Shown here: one piece after another, positions 56,241 to 64,000 of the stretch | Numbering within the stretch: the stretch's first letter is position 1 | How the letters are laid out: each line of letters begins with the position of its first letter | NCBI RefSeq assembly: GCF_001748285.1 | Contig: NZ_BDGT01000024.1 | Coordinates: 1 to 64,000 of the forward strand | Length of the DNA stretch: 64,000 nucleotides | Direction of reading: 5' to 3' | Origin: Thermogemmatispora onikobensis | GTDB lineage: Bacteria > Chloroflexota > Ktedonobacteria > Ktedonobacterales > Ktedonobacteraceae | Translations under genes and position numbers: made by a program | Notes under the pieces: model-generated | What the model saw: only the letters and a program-made list of their open reading frames with translations | Told to the model about the DNA's origin: nothing | Database searches by the model: none

Positions 56241-57623
56241 TTGCTTGAACAAAGGAGGCATTTTACGGCAAGAAACGAGGCTGTGCTGATCAAGCAGAGA
56301 ACCACGGAGGGGCCGGAGCGGGCCTTTCTCGTCGCGGTGGCCAGTGAGCGGCAGGAAACGCTCTGGAGCGCTGAGGATTCGCTCAACGAGCTGGAGGCCC
56401 TGGCCAGAACTGCCGGGGCCGAGGTAGTCGGCAAGATGCTGCAGCACCTGCGTCATCCTGATCCTGCTACCTATCTTGGTAAGGGAAAGGTCCAGGAGCT
56501 GGCTGCTCTGGAGCAGGAGCTGGGCTTTGATCTGGTGATTTTCGATGACGAGCTGTCACCCTCTCAGCAGCGCAATCTTGAAAAGGCTCTCAATGCGCGT
56601 GTGATCGATCGTACGACACTGATTCTCGATATCTTTGCCCAGCATGCGCGGACGCGCGAGGGGCGCCTCCAGGTTGAGCTGGCGCAGCTGGAATATCGCC
56701 TGCCTCGCCTGAGCGGGCGTGGTGTTGAGCTGTCGCAGCAGGCTGGTGGCTCGCTTGGAGCGGTTGGCGTTGGCGGTGCTATTGGAGTCCGCGGCCCTGG
56801 TGAGACGCGGCTGGAGATCGATCGTCGCCGCATTCGCAATCGCCTGGCGGAGTTGCGTCGCGAGCTGGAGGAGGTGCGTGAGCAGCGCACGCTCCATCGT
56901 CGTCAGCGGGCGGCTTTGACAATGCCGGTGGTGGCAGTGGTGGGCTACACCAATGCTGGTAAGTCGACGCTCTTTAATGCTTTGAGTCAGGCCGATGTTC
57001 TGGTCGAAAACAAGCTGTTTGCGACGCTTGATCCGACGACGCGCCGCGTGGTGCTGCCGGGCAACCAGGAGGTCTTGCTGACGGATACGGTGGGTTTCAT
57101 TCAGCGCCTGCCGACGCGCCTGGTGGCTGCTTTCCGAGCCACGCTAGAGGAGGTGGTGGATGCCGATGTGCTGCTGGAGGTAGTGGATATCAGCCACGAG
57201 AATGCCATCGAGCAGAGCGAGACGGTCAACGAGGTCTTGCGCGAGCTGGAGGCCCATGAGAAGCCGCGGGTGACGGCCCTCAATAAGATCGATCTGCTGC
57301 CTGATCCCGATCGTGTTGATCCTTCGCTCTATCCCAATGCTGTGGTAGTCTCGGCGCTGCATGGCTGGGGTCTGGAGGCACTGCGTGAGAAGCTGGCCCA
57401 GGTGGTGGCTGAGCAGATGGTGCCTTTGCAGGTGCTTGTGCCTTACGCGCGCGGCGACCTGGTGGAACTCTTCCATCGTCGCGGGCGTGTCGAGCTAGAA
57501 GAGCATCGCGCCGAGGGGACACTCCTGGTCGGGCGCCTGCCCTTTGCCCTGGCTGGTTACTATGCGCCGTATCGCCTTCAGCAGCGCAGAGGCTTGCTCA
57601 GGGTCCCTAGCGTCCGCTCCTAG
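56241..57623 (+). CDS. hflX: GTPase HflX (ribosome-splitting)
   Basis: GTPase that binds and splits ribosomes under stress. It carries the N-terminal HflX domain (ERAFLVAVASERQ, TYLGKGKVQELAAL, VIFDDELSPSQQRNLEKAL with core DDELSPSQQRNLE, VIDRTTLILDIFAQHARTREG). A helical linker follows, then the G domain with P-loop VVGYTNAGKSTLFNAL, LTDTVGFIQRLP and NKIDLLPDP. The start is unclear. TTG 56241 is the outermost choice. A perfect AAAGGAGG is followed 6 bases later by an in-frame ACG (56265). GTG 56283 also fits. The family core starts about 25 codons after 56241. Confidence 0.92.
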   Translation: MLEQRRHFTARNEAVLIKQRTTEGPERAFLVAVASERQETLWSAEDSLNELEALARTAGAEVVGKMLQHLRHPDPATYLGKGKVQELAALEQELGFDLVIFDDELSPSQQRNLEKALNARVIDRTTLILDIFAQHARTREGRLQVELAQLEYRLPRLSGRGVELSQQAGGSLGAVGVGGAIGVRGPGETRLEIDRRRIRNRLAELRRELEEVREQRTLHRRQRAALTMPVVAVVGYTNAGKSTLFNALSQADVLVENKLFATLDPTTRRVVLPGNQEVLLTDTVGFIQRLPTRLVAAFRATLEEVVDADVLLEVVDISHENAIEQSETVNEVLRELEAHEKPRVTALNKIDLLPDPDRVDPSLYPNAVVVSALHGWGLEALREKLAQVVAEQMVPLQVLVPYARGDLVELFHRRGRVELEEHRAEGTLLVGRLPFALAGYYAPYRLQQRRGLLRVPSVRS

Positions 57624-57740: not shown

Positions 57741-58895
57741 TCAGGTCTGCTTGCTTTTCAACTCCTGGATGACCCGATACAGCTCATCGGCGATCTCCTT
57801 CATGGCTGCGTCGCGGTCCCTGCTTTCCGTGATAGGTTGCCCGGAGCGCGGCAGGGCCTGCAGCTTGCCGAAGGGAGAGTTGGCCAGCTCCACAGTTGGC
57901 CGCAACTTGATCGGGATGATGCGCGCCGTGCCGGCCTCGTGGCGCTGCATGGCCCGCTGCATTTCTTCGTTGTAGCATTGGTCGGAGCTCATGTAATCAG
58001 GACTGATAAGTAACAGAATGATATCCGCCTGCTCTAGCAGGCGCTGGCTCTCGCTCCGTTCACGTCCCGCGCTTAGCTGCTCGCTGTGGTAGCTTTCGAT
58101 CAGTTGATTGCGTCTAAAGGAAGCCAGCTGCTTCTCAAGTTCCTCTCTCAGTTTGCGATCCCGCTGGCTGCCTGAGTAGGATATAAAGACTTTGAGGGCT
58201 TTAGTGTTCTGCTGGAGCAGCGGCTGATACTGGGGACAGCACTGTCCGAGGCGCTGACGTTGCTCGACTGAGAGAAGCTCCAGCCAGCGGCGGTTTTGCC
58301 GGTGTGTGGCCAATTGATGATTGACAAGATCAGGAAGCTGAGCAAGGATGACGCGCGCCTGCAGACCCTGGCCCCCGCGCTCGCTATGGAGGCCCAGCGA
58401 GAACTGGATCATACCGCAGACGCAGCCGCTTTCCCGGTCGAGCAGCGGGGCGCCGCTCATGCCGGGATCGACCGGCCCGCGTTGGAAGGTGATCCACTGG
58501 TTCCGCTCACCGGCTGGTCCGGCGGCGTCGAAAATGAAAGAGGTGCCTCCAGGCACTGAGCCTGGGTAACCATAGGTGTACAGGCTGCTGTAGGGCTGAG
58601 CCTCACCGCAGAGTAAGACACAAGGATGATCCTCAAGAGGGACCGTTAACAGCGCCAGATCCCGATCCGGGGACGAGTCATCAGCAGGCACTGTAGTGAT
58701 GGCCGCCTCGTAATATCTCTCCTGCCAGTAGATCTGGAGGCTGGAAGTTGCCTTGTGAGCAGATGGGATGACGTGGGCGCAGGTCAGAATCAGGCCCGGC
58801 CCCACAAAGAAGCCTGTACCCCTGGGATTATGGGCGGCGTCGATGCGAACAGTGGCCCGCTGGAGGAGCGCCGCTAAGTCGTCGATCATGTCCAT
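57741..58895 (-). CDS. Trypsin-like protease fused to a TIR domain
   Basis: 384 residues. Residues 10-185 are a trypsin-fold serine protease with the catalytic triad visible: His41 (ILTCAHV), Asp79 (DRDLALL) and Ser147 (PGMSGAPLL). A helical linker of about 45 residues (VNHQLATHRQNRRWLELLSV) leads to a TIR domain (234-380): VFISYSGSQRDRKLREELE, ESYHSEQLSAGRERSESQ, DIILLLISPDYMSSDQC and the candidate catalytic Glu in CYNEEMQ. No signal peptide is seen, so it acts in the cytosol. TIR with the Glu often cleaves NAD. Fusion to a protease is typical of bacterial conflict or defence systems. A TATAAT lies about 19 bases upstream. Confidence 0.88.
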   Translation of the reverse strand: MDMIDDLAALLQRATVRIDAAHNPRGTGFFVGPGLILTCAHVIPSAHKATSSLQIYWQERYYEAAITTVPADDSSPDRDLALLTVPLEDHPCVLLCGEAQPYSSLYTYGYPGSVPGGTSFIFDAAGPAGERNQWITFQRGPVDPGMSGAPLLDRESGCVCGMIQFSLGLHSERGGQGLQARVILAQLPDLVNHQLATHRQNRRWLELLSVEQRQRLGQCCPQYQPLLQQNTKALKVFISYSGSQRDRKLREELEKQLASFRRNQLIESYHSEQLSAGRERSESQRLLEQADIILLLISPDYMSSDQCYNEEMQRAMQRHEAGTARIIPIKLRPTVELANSPFGKLQALPRSGQPITESRDRDAAMKEIADELYRVIQELKSKQT

Positions 58896-58913
58896 TTGTT
58901 CCTCTTAGCGCAG

Positions 58914-58919
58914 ATTATA
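58914..58919 (-). promoter_or_regulatory. -10 box of the protease-TIR gene
   Basis: TATAAT on the minus strand, with AGAGGA as a ribosome site between it and the ATG. The -35 is weak. Confidence 0.5.
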
Positions 58920-59143: not shown

Positions 59144-60169
59144 GTGTATCCCTGGTCGCACGACTTCAAAGGGCGCTTTGACGAAGTGACCTTTGAGAGC
59201 CAGGTGCTCAAGAGCAATCCTCTAGGTGACCCCTATCAGCGCCCGCTCTGGATCTATCTGCCGCCCGGCTACGACGAGCAGCCAGAGCGGCGCTATCCCA
59301 GCATCTATTTGATTCAGGGGCTGACGGGCCAGCTTGACATGTGGCGCAATCGCTCGGCCTTCCGGCGCAACTTCCCGGAGCTGGCCGACGAGCTGTTTGC
59401 CAAAGGGGAAGCTCCGCCGTGCATCCTCGTCTGGGTCGACTGCTGGACCTCTCTGGGAGGAAGCCAGTTCCTGGATTCACCCGCTGTCGGACACTACCAC
59501 ACCTATCTCTGCGATGAAATCGTCCCTTGGGTCGATGCCCACTATCGGACGCTGGCAGCGCGCGAACATCGGGGAATCGCCGGCAAGTCCAGCGGTGGCT
59601 ACGGCGCGATGGTCACTCCCATGCTACGACCAGATCTGTGGGGGGGCCTGGCAACCCACGCTGGTGACGCCCTCTTTGAGGTCTGTTATCAGCGCGACTT
59701 TGCCAGGGTGGCGCGGGCCTTGCGCGATCACTATGGCGGCTCATACGAACGCTTCTGGCAGGACTTCCGCAGCCGTCCGGCCTTCTCCAAAGAGGGCGAT
59801 GCCGATCTGCTCAATATCTGGTGTATGGCTGCCTGCTACTCGGCGGATATGGATGGTACGGTGCATCTGCCTTTCGATATCGCCACCGGTCAGCTGGTTC
59901 CCGATGTCTGGGAGCGCTGGCTGGCCTGGGACCCGGTACGGATGGTGCCTTTGCACGCCGAGGCGCTGCGCTCGCTGCGGGCGGTCTATATCGATGCGGG
60001 CAAGCGCGATGAGTACTATCTCGACCTGGGAGCCGAGGCGTTCCGCCGGGCCCTGGCCGAGATTGGCGTCACCGATGTCTTCTTTGAGCTGTTCGATGGA
60101 CGTCATGGCGGAATCGAGTATCGCTATCCGCTGAGCCTGAAATATCTGGCCGAACGGCTTTCCCCATAG
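59144..60169 (+). CDS. Esterase-D/putative-esterase family alpha/beta hydrolase
   Basis: 341 residues from a GTG with AAGGAGGCG upstream. The fold is that of putative esterases (RPLWIYLPPGYDEQPERRYP with its YLPPGYD core). The nucleophile Ser is in GIAGKSSGGYGAM (GxSxG), the acid is probably in VYIDAGKRDEYY and the His is in FDGRHGGIEYR. No signal peptide is seen. It lies between the protease-TIR gene and the sigma-like gene, each divergent or convergent to it, so it may be independent. Confidence 0.85.
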   Translation: MYPWSHDFKGRFDEVTFESQVLKSNPLGDPYQRPLWIYLPPGYDEQPERRYPSIYLIQGLTGQLDMWRNRSAFRRNFPELADELFAKGEAPPCILVWVDCWTSLGGSQFLDSPAVGHYHTYLCDEIVPWVDAHYRTLAAREHRGIAGKSSGGYGAMVTPMLRPDLWGGLATHAGDALFEVCYQRDFARVARALRDHYGGSYERFWQDFRSRPAFSKEGDADLLNIWCMAACYSADMDGTVHLPFDIATGQLVPDVWERWLAWDPVRMVPLHAEALRSLRAVYIDAGKRDEYYLDLGAEAFRRALAEIGVTDVFFELFDGRHGGIEYRYPLSLKYLAERLSP

Positions 60170-60320: not shown

Positions 60321-60971
60321 TTAGACGCCAAGCGGCTCGCGCAGGTGTCGCCGGGCGGCGCTTAAGGCGGAGCGATAGCGCTTAAGCTCAGCCTGACTCT
60401 GGGGAGACGGTACCTGCTCGGGGTCCAAACCCGCCTTGCGCAGCGCCGCGATCACTGGCCGGAGTTCAAGACTGTGCTCGCGGATGCACCAGAGCACCGC
60501 TTTCCGTTCACCGGCTGATAGACTTTGAATGGCCTGAATGTAAAGGGCAAGACGCTCTTCAGGAAAATCTTGTAGCTCACACTCATAGGCTGGATCACGA
60601 TCTCCCTCATTGGTAGCTGCACACTGCTCGCTGAGGGCAAGAACCTCCGGCTGCTCGGCCTCTAGCGGAAGAAGCAGCGGACGGCGACGGAGGCGCCGAC
60701 AGGCATCACGTGCGCGATTTCGCACGATGACACGGATCAGTAAAGCAGGTCTGCACAGTGGCCCTTTTCGACTGACTTTCCAGAGAGCGATACGCACCTC
60801 CTGGCATTCGTCCTGATAGAGTGCTTCCAGATCTTCCCTCTTGCTATGACCGATACGCGAGAAGTCGTGACGTACCTGGGCCACAACCTGAGCGTCACAG
60901 GCACGTAGTAGGGCGTTATCCTCAGAGTCGCTGTCGTCAGCAGAAACTCCAAACGAAATTGCTGGGTTCAC
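60321..60971 (-). CDS. Sigma-70-like protein with degenerate C-terminal region
   Basis: 216 residues from a GTG, with GAAGGAGGGG upstream. Residues about 45-115 resemble sigma region 2 (DLEALYQDECQEVRIALWKV, LLIRVIVRNRARDACRRLRR). The part that should be region 4 is long and changed (IQSLSAGERKAVLWCIREHS, then VIAALRKAGLDPEQV), without a clear helix-turn-helix consensus. It could be an alternative sigma factor, or a domain of signalling proteins related to sigma factors. Its target genes are unknown. It is divergent from the STAND gene. Confidence 0.6.
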   Translation of the reverse strand: MNPAISFGVSADDSDSEDNALLRACDAQVVAQVRHDFSRIGHSKREDLEALYQDECQEVRIALWKVSRKGPLCRPALLIRVIVRNRARDACRRLRRRPLLLPLEAEQPEVLALSEQCAATNEGDRDPAYECELQDFPEERLALYIQAIQSLSAGERKAVLWCIREHSLELRPVIAALRKAGLDPEQVPSPQSQAELKRYRSALSAARRHLREPLGV

Positions 60972-61454: not shown

Positions 61455-64000
61455 ATGGCAGAAAAGAGGCACGCTCCGGTGAGCGCTATTGGGACTCGTA
61501 TGCGTCACCTGCGCCAGCAGATGGGGAAGAGCCTGAGCGAGGTGGCTCGCACGGTGGGCTATTCGAAGAGCTATCTTTCTGCGGTTGAGAACAATGTGAC
61601 CTTGCCTTCGCTCCAGCTCGTGCAGGAATACGAGCGTGCGCTCCAGCTCCGTCACGGTGAGCTGGTTGAGGTGCTGGTGGAAGGGCAGCTAGAGCAGCTC
61701 CCACGTGGGCGCCGGCGTGCTCCCGCCTCTCTGGTTCTCCCTGCGTCTCCGGTGGTTTCTCCTTCCTCGACTGCGCTTGCGCGCTGTGACCTTGAAGAAG
61801 CCCCCCACGTCTCGCGTCTCTATGGCCGTGGCGAGGAGCAAGAGCTGCTCTGGCGTTGGGTAGTGCAAGATGGCTGCCGTCTGATTGCTATTGTAGGCAT
61901 CGGAGGAGTGGGCAAGACTGCCCTGGCGGCGACTCTGGTGCAGCGTTTGCGCAGCTCCGCCGCTTTTCAAGGTCTCCTCTGGCTCTCGCTTCACACTCCT
62001 TTGTCGCGTGGGCGCCTGCTCGATCGCTGTTTGCGCTTTCTCAATGGGGTGGAGGGGCAGCAGCCAGCCTCGGCCTCCCTTCCTGAGAGTGAGGAGGATC
62101 GTCTAAAGCTGCTGATCCAGCGACTGGAGCAAGGGCGATTTCTGTTGGTTCTTGATGACTTCGATTCGTTGCTGCAAAGTGGTGCTCTGGCGGGCCAGTA
62201 TAAGGAGGATTATAAGGACTACGAGGAGCTGCTCTATCTGCTGGGGAGCCGTGCTCTGCAAAGCTGCGTGATCCTGACCAGCCGCGAAAAGCCTGATGGC
62301 ATCCCTCTGCAGGAAGGAAAGCATGCGCCGGTGCGCACTATGACCCTGGCGGGAGTCTCGCCCGAGGCGGGGCGTCTCTTGCTCGCTGGTGAGGGGCTGG
62401 AGGGCGATGATGAGCACTGGGCCGAGTTCATCCGCCGCTATGCTGGCAATCCTCTGGCCCTGAAACTGGTCTCGCCGACCATCCGCGAGGTCTTTGATCG
62501 CCAGATCGCTCGCTTCCTCGATCAGGAGGTGCTTGTTCTTCAGGGCATCAGGGACCTGCTTGATAAGCAGTTTGAGCGCTTGACTCCTGATGAGCGGGAT
62601 GTCCTCTACTGGTTGGCGATTGGGCGCGAGGTGGTGACGCTCTCTGAGTTGCTGGAGGATCGTCTGACGCGCACTCCCAAGGGGGCGCTGCTCGAAGTAT
62701 TGAAGTCGCTGCGCCATCGCTCGCTGGTCGAGGTGCGTGGTGCCGCAGGGTATACCTTGCAGCCGGTGATCTGTGAGTATGTGACGGAGCGTCTGGTGCA
62801 GCAGGTGGCCGCCGAAATTCTCCAAGAGCGGCCGCTCTCTCTCTTGCAAAGTCATGCCCTGCTCAAGGCGCAGGCGCGGGACTATATTCGCGAAGACCAG
62901 ATCCGTTCGATTCTTGAGCCGCTGGCTCATATCTTGCGCTCGGCCAGAGGGGGGAACGGCTGTGAGCAGCTGCTGCGCTCTTTGCTGGCCCGGCTCGAAC
63001 GTGGCAGGCCAGGCTATGCGGCTGGCAATATCCTCAATCTGCTCCTCCACTTGCAGTCTGATCTTCGTGGCTGGGACTTCTCGGGTCTGGCGGTCTGGCA
63101 GGCGAATTTGCGGGGCAAAGCCTTACCCGGTGTCAATTTCGCCTGGGCCGACCTGACCGGCTCGGCCTTCACCGAGTTCTTCGGCAGCATTCTTGCGGTG
63201 GCTCTCAACCAGGATGGCTCACTCCTAGCGCTTGGGACAACGACCTGTGAGGTCCGTATCTTCCGTGTTCGTGATTATGCGCCGCTGGTAACCTGCCAGG
63301 GCCATGCCGACTGGGTGCGCTCGGTTCTCTTTAGCCCTGATGGTCGCATGGTGATCAGCGGTAGCGAGGATGGGACGATTCGTCTCTGGGATGTAGAAAC
63401 CGGCCAGTGCCTGCAGACTCTGCGAGGTCATCGCGAACGCATCTATTCGCTCGCTATCAGCGCTGATGGTAGCCTGCTTGCCAGTGGAAGCGGTGATCAG
63501 ACCGTGCGTCTCTGGCGTCTTGATATGGCCTCCGGTCTCGCTGAGTGCTTCTGTGAACTCGCTGACCAGGAGCAAGGCGGCAGAGTCTATGCTGTGGCCC
63601 TCACCCCCGATAGCAAGACGCTGGTCAGCGGCGGAGAAGATGCCATCTTGCGCCTCTGGGATGTCGAGAGCGGCGTCTGCCGGACCCGCCTCCCGGGTCC
63701 CAACGGTGGCATCTGGTCGCTGGCTCTTAGTCGCGATGGCCGCCTGCTCGCCTGCGGTTGCAAGGAGCGAATCATGCTCTGGGACCTGACCTCGTTGACG
63801 CTGCAGGCTTCTTGGGATGCTCACCGTGAGGAGGTCTATGCCCTCTCTTTCAGCGGCGATAGTCGCTTCCTGGTGAGCGCTGGAGGCGATCGTCTCTTGC
63901 GCCTCTGGAACATAGGCGATCACTCTTGCGTCAAGACGCTGGAAGGGCACAGTCGGCGTGTCTATGCCCTGGCTGTGAGCGCTGACGATCGCTTGCTGGT
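61455..64000 (+). CDS. XRE-NB-ARC-WD40 STAND protein (3' end outside window)
   Basis: Starts at ATG 61455 after GAGAGGAGGCAGCA and is open to the window end (848 codons visible). Residues 10-70 are an XRE-type helix-turn-helix (MGKSLSEVARTVGYSKSYLS). Residues 120-450 are a STAND/NB-ARC NTPase with P-loop GIGGVGKT (148-155), Walker B LLVLDD (230-235), sensor LTSRE and GNPLAL. A helical region follows, then a short pentapeptide-like stretch (537-572) and WD40 repeats from about 577 (RSVLFSPDGRMVISGSEDGT, TIRLWD). Such proteins oligomerise on a signal sensed by the repeats. The XRE head may make it a DNA-binding switch that controls its own promoter. The number of WD40 units is unknown because of the cut. 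Confidence 0.9.
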   Translation, partial: MAEKRHAPVSAIGTRMRHLRQQMGKSLSEVARTVGYSKSYLSAVENNVTLPSLQLVQEYERALQLRHGELVEVLVEGQLEQLPRGRRRAPASLVLPASPVVSPSSTALARCDLEEAPHVSRLYGRGEEQELLWRWVVQDGCRLIAIVGIGGVGKTALAATLVQRLRSSAAFQGLLWLSLHTPLSRGRLLDRCLRFLNGVEGQQPASASLPESEEDRLKLLIQRLEQGRFLLVLDDFDSLLQSGALAGQYKEDYKDYEELLYLLGSRALQSCVILTSREKPDGIPLQEGKHAPVRTMTLAGVSPEAGRLLLAGEGLEGDDEHWAEFIRRYAGNPLALKLVSPTIREVFDRQIARFLDQEVLVLQGIRDLLDKQFERLTPDERDVLYWLAIGREVVTLSELLEDRLTRTPKGALLEVLKSLRHRSLVEVRGAAGYTLQPVICEYVTERLVQQVAAEILQERPLSLLQSHALLKAQARDYIREDQIRSILEPLAHILRSARGGNGCEQLLRSLLARLERGRPGYAAGNILNLLLHLQSDLRGWDFSGLAVWQANLRGKALPGVNFAWADLTGSAFTEFFGSILAVALNQDGSLLALGTTTCEVRIFRVRDYAPLVTCQGHADWVRSVLFSPDGRMVISGSEDGTIRLWDVETGQCLQTLRGHRERIYSLAISADGSLLASGSGDQTVRLWRLDMASGLAECFCELADQEQGGRVYAVALTPDSKTLVSGGEDAILRLWDVESGVCRTRLPGPNGGIWSLALSRDGRLLACGCKERIMLWDLTSLTLQASWDAHREEVYALSFSGDSRFLVSAGGDRLLRLWNIGDHSCVKTLEGHSRRVYALAVSADDRLL

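Follow-up and report, generated by a model that had tools for sequence, protein, structure and literature searches.

The window analysed here, a stretch of 64,000 nucleotides from Thermogemmatispora onikobensis (assembly GCF_001748285.1, contig NZ_BDGT01000024.1, positions 1 to 64,000), carries on its reverse strand an open reading frame of 384 amino acids, P0001, in which a trypsin-like protease is fused to a TIR domain, just as a first-pass annotation had proposed: Pfam identifies Trypsin_2 (E 2.6e-16) in the N-terminal half and TIR_2 (E 2.4e-11) as well as TIR (E 2.9e-8) in the C-terminal half, all above the curated cut-offs (Table 1). The frame is a real gene and not a chance one, because its orthologues within Thermogemmatispora are 64-98% identical, their dN/dS lies at 0.13-0.30 and synteny is conserved. 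The nearest named records come from T. aurantia (97%), T. tikiterensis (93%) and T. carboxidivorans (82%). Upstream of the start codon, an AGAGGA motif resembles a ribosome-binding site; a TATAAT was noted by eye, for which the promoter scan gave no call.

Table 1. Features of the trypsin-TIR gene and its flanks (positions in the window)
Feature	Position	Strand	Evidence
Trypsin-TIR fusion gene P0001 (ATG at 58895, stop ends at 57741)	57741..58895	-	ORF list, Pfam, orthologues
Trypsin_2 domain, residues 26-162	58410..58820	-	Pfam, alignment, AlphaFold model
Triad codons	H41 58773-58775; D79 58659-58661; S147 58455-58457	-	alignment
Post-protease helical extension, residues about 188-215	58251..58334	-	model and alignment
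TIR domain, residues 236-346	57858..58190	-	Pfam, alignment, TIR model
Glu311 codon	57963-57965	-	TIR alignment
Ser271 codon (replaces BB-loop Asp)	58083-58085	-	TIR alignment
Putative allele-replacement breakpoint vs T. carboxidivorans, codon 236, protease/TIR boundary	58190	-	max chi-square
Own upstream signals: TATAAT 58914-58919, AGAGGA 58900-58905	58900..58919	-	by eye
hflX GTPase, conserved housekeeping flank	56241..57623	+	Pfam, synteny
Putative esterase PF00756, conserved flank, divergent from trypsin-TIR gene	59144..60169	+	Pfam, synteny

The gene occupies the same syntenic site, between hflX and the esterase gene, in all six genomes of the genus that were searched. It converges with hflX and diverges from the esterase gene, and is therefore a lone gene outside any operon. 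Its near neighbours (rlmN, cvpA, hflX, the esterase gene and a sigma-like gene) are of housekeeping type or unassigned. The sigma-like gene (60321-60971, reverse strand) reaches 20.7 bits against an NCBIfam cut-off of 42.9 bits for sigma-70, has no Pfam match and is conserved in the genus; farther on, positions 61455-63998 hold the start of a large receptor-like protein with HTH, NTPase and WD40 parts, which runs out of the window and whose location is conserved among several members of the genus. A PADLOC scan of six neighbours revealed no convincing defence gene, so that enrichment beside known defence genes, which the first-pass annotation had put forward as a check, is not supported by the hflX/esterase locus of the genus. 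Neither ThsA nor another NAD- or cADPR-responsive partner adjoins the gene, and with no ThsA beside it we rejected a Thoeris system; the position directly upstream is taken by the divergent esterase and not by an MBL-fold nuclease, for which reason a nuclease-protease pair as in HamMAB or Avs1 was likewise rejected. Moreover, neither phage records nor viral contigs gave a match to the gene, and as its synteny is fixed too, a mobile or phage-borne gene was also rejected. One genome (G002) contains two copies: Both lie on contig fragments that carry hflX, one of them also the esterase side, which is why we discarded paralogy and consider two strains in one metagenome-assembled genome more likely.

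In the protease half, the alignment reveals a complete catalytic triad of H41, D79 and S147, which all 12 related proteases compared across three phyla share without exception, and W204 in the post-protease helix aligns in all 12 Trypco1-type trypsins compared. AlphaFold predicts two domains for the full-length monomer (mean pLDDT 81), of which the protease part is HtrA- and Rv3671c-like according to Foldseek, connected by a linker (residues 219-230) that is disordered in the model (mean pLDDT 44 around residues 221-230). No hydrophobic leader is evident: The highest 19-residue hydropathy mean (1.45, at residue 28) falls within the protease fold, and the N-terminus bears D4, D5 and D19. Judged by hydropathy and N-terminal residues, the claim of the first-pass annotation that a secretion signal is absent appears to hold.

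As proteases dominated the Foldseek matches of the full-length model, the TIR domain was modelled by itself, also as a monomer (pLDDT 86); its best PDB matches are TIRs of plant resistance proteins, for example RPS4, along with other TIRs, and its best PADLOC match is the ThsB model (E 1.2e-38). Every aligned Thermogemmatispora copy retains E311, the catalytic glutamate of helix alpha-C. In two relatives from outside the genus (G012 and G024, see below) the glutamate is offset by one alignment column and ambiguous: MAFFT places a leucine in the E311 column, yet a DEL motif resembling that of Cat1 and plant TIRs lies one column off, and we dropped the notion that the residue had been lost there. 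Of the key residues said to be kept, triad and glutamate are indeed present, whereas the conserved aspartate of the BB-loop is replaced by Ser271. This position is serine in all Thermogemmatispora copies aligned and glutamate or asparagine in G012 and G024; the aspartate is hence absent in six of six trypsin-TIRs, rows that are not independent of each other, whereas 13 of the 15 other TIRs compared within this bacterial family possess it. The exchange D158R in the BB-loop of SpbK abolishes NADase activity and defence (PMC12847820), and D33A in Cat1 reduces this activity and removes toxicity altogether (PMC12162218); by alignment, D33 corresponds to the replaced aspartate, and D158 presumably does so too, given its BB-loop position. 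Because the aspartate is missing in all six aligned trypsin-TIRs, NADase activity of the fusion is possible yet uncertain. About eight other TIR proteins are encoded in the genome. One TIR-containing frame of about 1000 amino acids (L003, G000:C15:47581-48054) shows a match that extends across one TAG stop, likewise in G001, G003, G004 and G005; the frame probably starts after this stop.

We then asked to which family the protease belongs. By profile similarity it falls into the lineage of Trypco1-associated trypsins described in VMAP systems (Kaur et al. 2020, PMC7159879): P0001 scores 327.9 bits on a 12-sequence protease profile of which it is itself a member. Profile searches returned two full-length relatives outside the genus, G012 and G024, which belong to the same bacterial family, are about 35% identical and have directly upstream a small gene for Trypco1 (PF19493, E 1e-15 to 1e-16). 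Trypco1 also adjoins relatives that match in the protease only, in two further Chloroflexota (G043 and G240) as well as on Allocoleopsis, Streptomyces and Nostoc plasmids. The 12-sequence profile, applied to 400 Chloroflexota genomes, divides the matches into two groups: With the seven Thermogemmatispora trypsin-TIRs set aside, Trypco1 lies within 3.6 kb in 19 of the 20 matches of at least 70 bits, whereas only one of the weaker, HtrA-like matches tabulated (57-70 bits) has a nearby Trypco1. Although the profile includes some of the matched sequences, the Trypco1 neighbourhood is not built into it, because its members were chosen by protease similarity, the trypsin-kinase on contig C36 of G000 excepted. 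None of the seven Thermogemmatispora trypsin-TIR copies has a Trypco1 neighbour; each genome of the genus has just one Trypco1 gene, and wherever its surroundings were examined it stands next to a different trypsin, here on contig C36. Trypco2 was not found in the genome, and VMAP-C had no match in the six genomes or in the control genomes. The defence reading of the first-pass annotation is thus upheld as far as the conflict-type, Trypco1-associated lineage of the protease is concerned, and not with respect to enrichment beside known defence genes.

What follows the trypsin differs widely among the relatives. In ten of them, scanned as partial pieces, we found nSTAND1 five times (once with WD40), NB-ARC with APAF-1-like modules once, NACHT/nSTAND3 once, weaker AAA matches twice and no further domain once; other partners are nSTAND1 with HEAT (Streptomyces), a STAND-like part with repeats (G043), CHAT (Allocoleopsis), a kinase (C36) and TIR with AAA_35 (Nostoc WP_114085519.1). 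Judging from this variety of STAND, NB-ARC, CHAT, kinase and TIR partners, the trypsin is best described as a portable N-terminal module. The trypsin-TIR architecture recurs in at least two phyla.

Several of these loci deserve mention in their own right. On C36 (L055 8388-15026), Trypco1 is accompanied by the 519-residue trypsin-kinase and a 1019-residue SF1 helicase that matches PADLOC MkoA (E 5e-115), which looks like a split Mokosh-like system whose kinase part carries the fused trypsin; all six genus genomes have the Trypco1 gene, and for four of them the trypsin is tabulated beside it. The Nostoc plasmid NZ_CP046708.1 (L129 3667-6205) encodes Trypco1 and the trypsin-TIR-AAA_35 protein, annotated merely as AAA-like. 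On the Allocoleopsis plasmid (L127 4674-6482), Trypco1 stands next to a trypsin-CHAT protein with two protease types in a single chain, CHAT being caspase-like, adjoined by genes for a SLOG-family protein and an AAA_21 ATPase. In G240 (L102 4588-7111), transposase-like frames lie between the Trypco1 and trypsin genes, suggesting that an insertion element split the pair.

In pairwise NG86 comparisons, which are rough, dN/dS of the trypsin-TIR gene (0.13-0.30) contrasts with 0.02-0.10 for hflX, the esterase gene and rlmN; the gene is under purifying selection, yet evolves faster than these neighbours. Relative to T. carboxidivorans, identity is about 94% in the protease and in both flanks, but 77% in the TIR: The best breakpoint falls at codon 236 (max chi-square 56.9, a value as high in 0 of 2000 permutations), dS rises from 0.19 in the protease to 0.70 in the TIR, and no other 450-base stretch in a comparison over 17 kb is as dissimilar as the TIR segment. 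dS among the neighbour genes varies too (0.17-0.51). Because the breakpoint coincides with the domain boundary, the comparison favours a divergent TIR allele acquired by recombination in T. carboxidivorans, a local rate difference being less likely; the TIR half appears to have been swapped between species. The replaced TIR retains both serine and glutamate.

The protein can be compared with several named systems. With the Trypco1-associated trypsins (PMC7159879) it shares the protease lineage by profile, the triad and the post-protease tryptophan, but it lacks a Trypco1 neighbour, an NTPase and, as it seems, a VMAP core. It also joins TIR and trypsin in one chain, although Kaur et al. describe a strong mutual exclusion of peptidase and nucleotide-signal domains in VMAP proteins. 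The Nostoc sp. ATCC 53789 protein WP_114085519.1 (Trypsin_2-TIR_2-AAA_35) has the same order of trypsin and TIR, but also its own C-terminal AAA_35 NTPase and Trypco1 upstream, and is about 24% identical. The trypsins fused to HamA, Avs1b or LmuA (PMC12799240) likewise combine an intracellular trypsin-like protease with a defence-type partner, and P0001 has weak profile similarity to LmuA and Avs1b; here, however, the upstream MBL-type nuclease is missing and a TIR replaces HamA, STAND or LmuA. In contrast to Thoeris ThsB, whose model the TIR matches, the domain is fused to a protease, lacks the BB-loop aspartate and has no adjoining ThsA. Finally, the CHAT-TIR target of a diversity-generating retroelement in Thiohalocapsa (PMC10907252) also unites protease and TIR in one conflict protein, but its protease is caspase-like, not trypsin-like.

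On these grounds we tentatively prefer, at somewhat less than an even chance, the explanation that P0001 is a cytosolic, single-gene conflict protease of the Trypco1-associated trypsin lineage in which TIR-driven assembly activates the attached protease as output, the TIR being the regulatory half and the Trypco1 partner having been lost. The TIR domains would gather on a trigger, which could be a second messenger, a product of the invader or one of the other TIR proteins of the genome, and thereby draw the attached HtrA-type proteases close to each other. Once active, the protease would cut a target, either a pro-effector or its own linker, so that the infected cell stops growing or dies, and the TIR may cleave NAD+ as a second output. 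The domains, the triad, the family, the lost Trypco1 neighbour, the purifying selection and the TIR allele replacement come from the analysis itself, whereas activation by assembly, the identity of the substrate, the fate of the cell and a part in anti-phage defence are inferred. The position of the modules within the family suggests that the trypsin is likely the N-terminal output and the C-terminal module the sensor or assembler: Seven of the ten relatives scanned have STAND, NB-ARC or NACHT, and two more the weaker AAA matches. An assembly role of the TIR would fit because STAND, kinase or CHAT modules fill the same slot in relatives, because the TIR seems to have been swapped as a unit with the protease retained, and because the BB-loop aspartate is absent in the trypsin-TIRs. 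There are precedents as well: HamA- or Avs-fused trypsins are switched on by oligomerisation and then cut a pro-nuclease (PMC12799240), and TIR NADases work as assembled filaments (PMC12847820, PMC12162218). Several observations stand against this explanation. Glu311 is retained throughout the genus, as would suit a catalytic TIR; a substrate gene, Trypco1 or a nuclease is missing next to the gene; the locus is vertically stable and surrounded by housekeeping genes, which is not typical of a defence island; and the linker is disordered in structures predicted for monomers alone.

The reverse order of events, which is the model of the first-pass annotation, appears less likely to us. Here the protease would act as sensor or switch: By cutting its linker or an inhibitor it would release the TIR, which then depletes NAD+ or produces a cyclic ADP-ribose signal. 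The retained Glu311, the ThsB match and the low-confidence linker separating the domains agree with this model, and effector release by proteolysis has been proposed for Trypco/VMAP systems (Kaur et al. 2020, PMC7159879); the replaced BB-loop aspartate, whose counterparts matter for SpbK and Cat1, disagrees with it, as do the sensors fused to the family trypsin, which make the latter a likely output. TIR NADases also need assembly, and cleavage alone would not supply it. Less probable still is a regulatory or developmental protein that these filamentous bacteria inherit vertically, serving programmed cell death or a sporulation-type process and not dedicated phage defence: Its presence at one housekeeping site in all six genomes, the lack of phage or viral matches and the link of these families to a multicellular habit (Kaur et al. 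2020, PMC7159879) would suit such a role, whereas the elevated dN/dS and the replaced TIR allele, both as for conflict genes, and the receptor-like family members would not. That the TIR makes a diffusible, Thoeris-like nucleotide signal, ended or tuned by the protease and meant for effectors encoded at other loci, is very improbable: The similarity to ThsB and the other TIR proteins of the genome speak for it, the missing BB-loop aspartate and a locus with no ThsA-like or caspase-like partner against it.

The protease lineage and the effector-type TIR domain are each known; new is their union in one chain without the usual partner gene. In the open-licence literature we found no description of a trypsin-TIR protein as such, and no reported experiment on Trypco1-associated trypsins, though the family is widespread. 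Most systems with such trypsins are large or multi-gene, whereas this one, from thermophilic bacteria of soil type, is reduced to a single protein; a single gene and two point mutants could therefore tell which half, protease or TIR, is the output and what triggers it. The TIR replacement exactly at the domain boundary suggests that the TIR is the part under changing selection. A stronger proposal, which we regard as unlikely, is a one-gene immune switch in which TIR assembly turns on the trypsin-type protease of the same chain and the TIR is a trigger exchangeable between species; if true, this switch would be a bacterial analogue of TIR-to-caspase signalling with no need for Trypco1 or an NTPase receptor.
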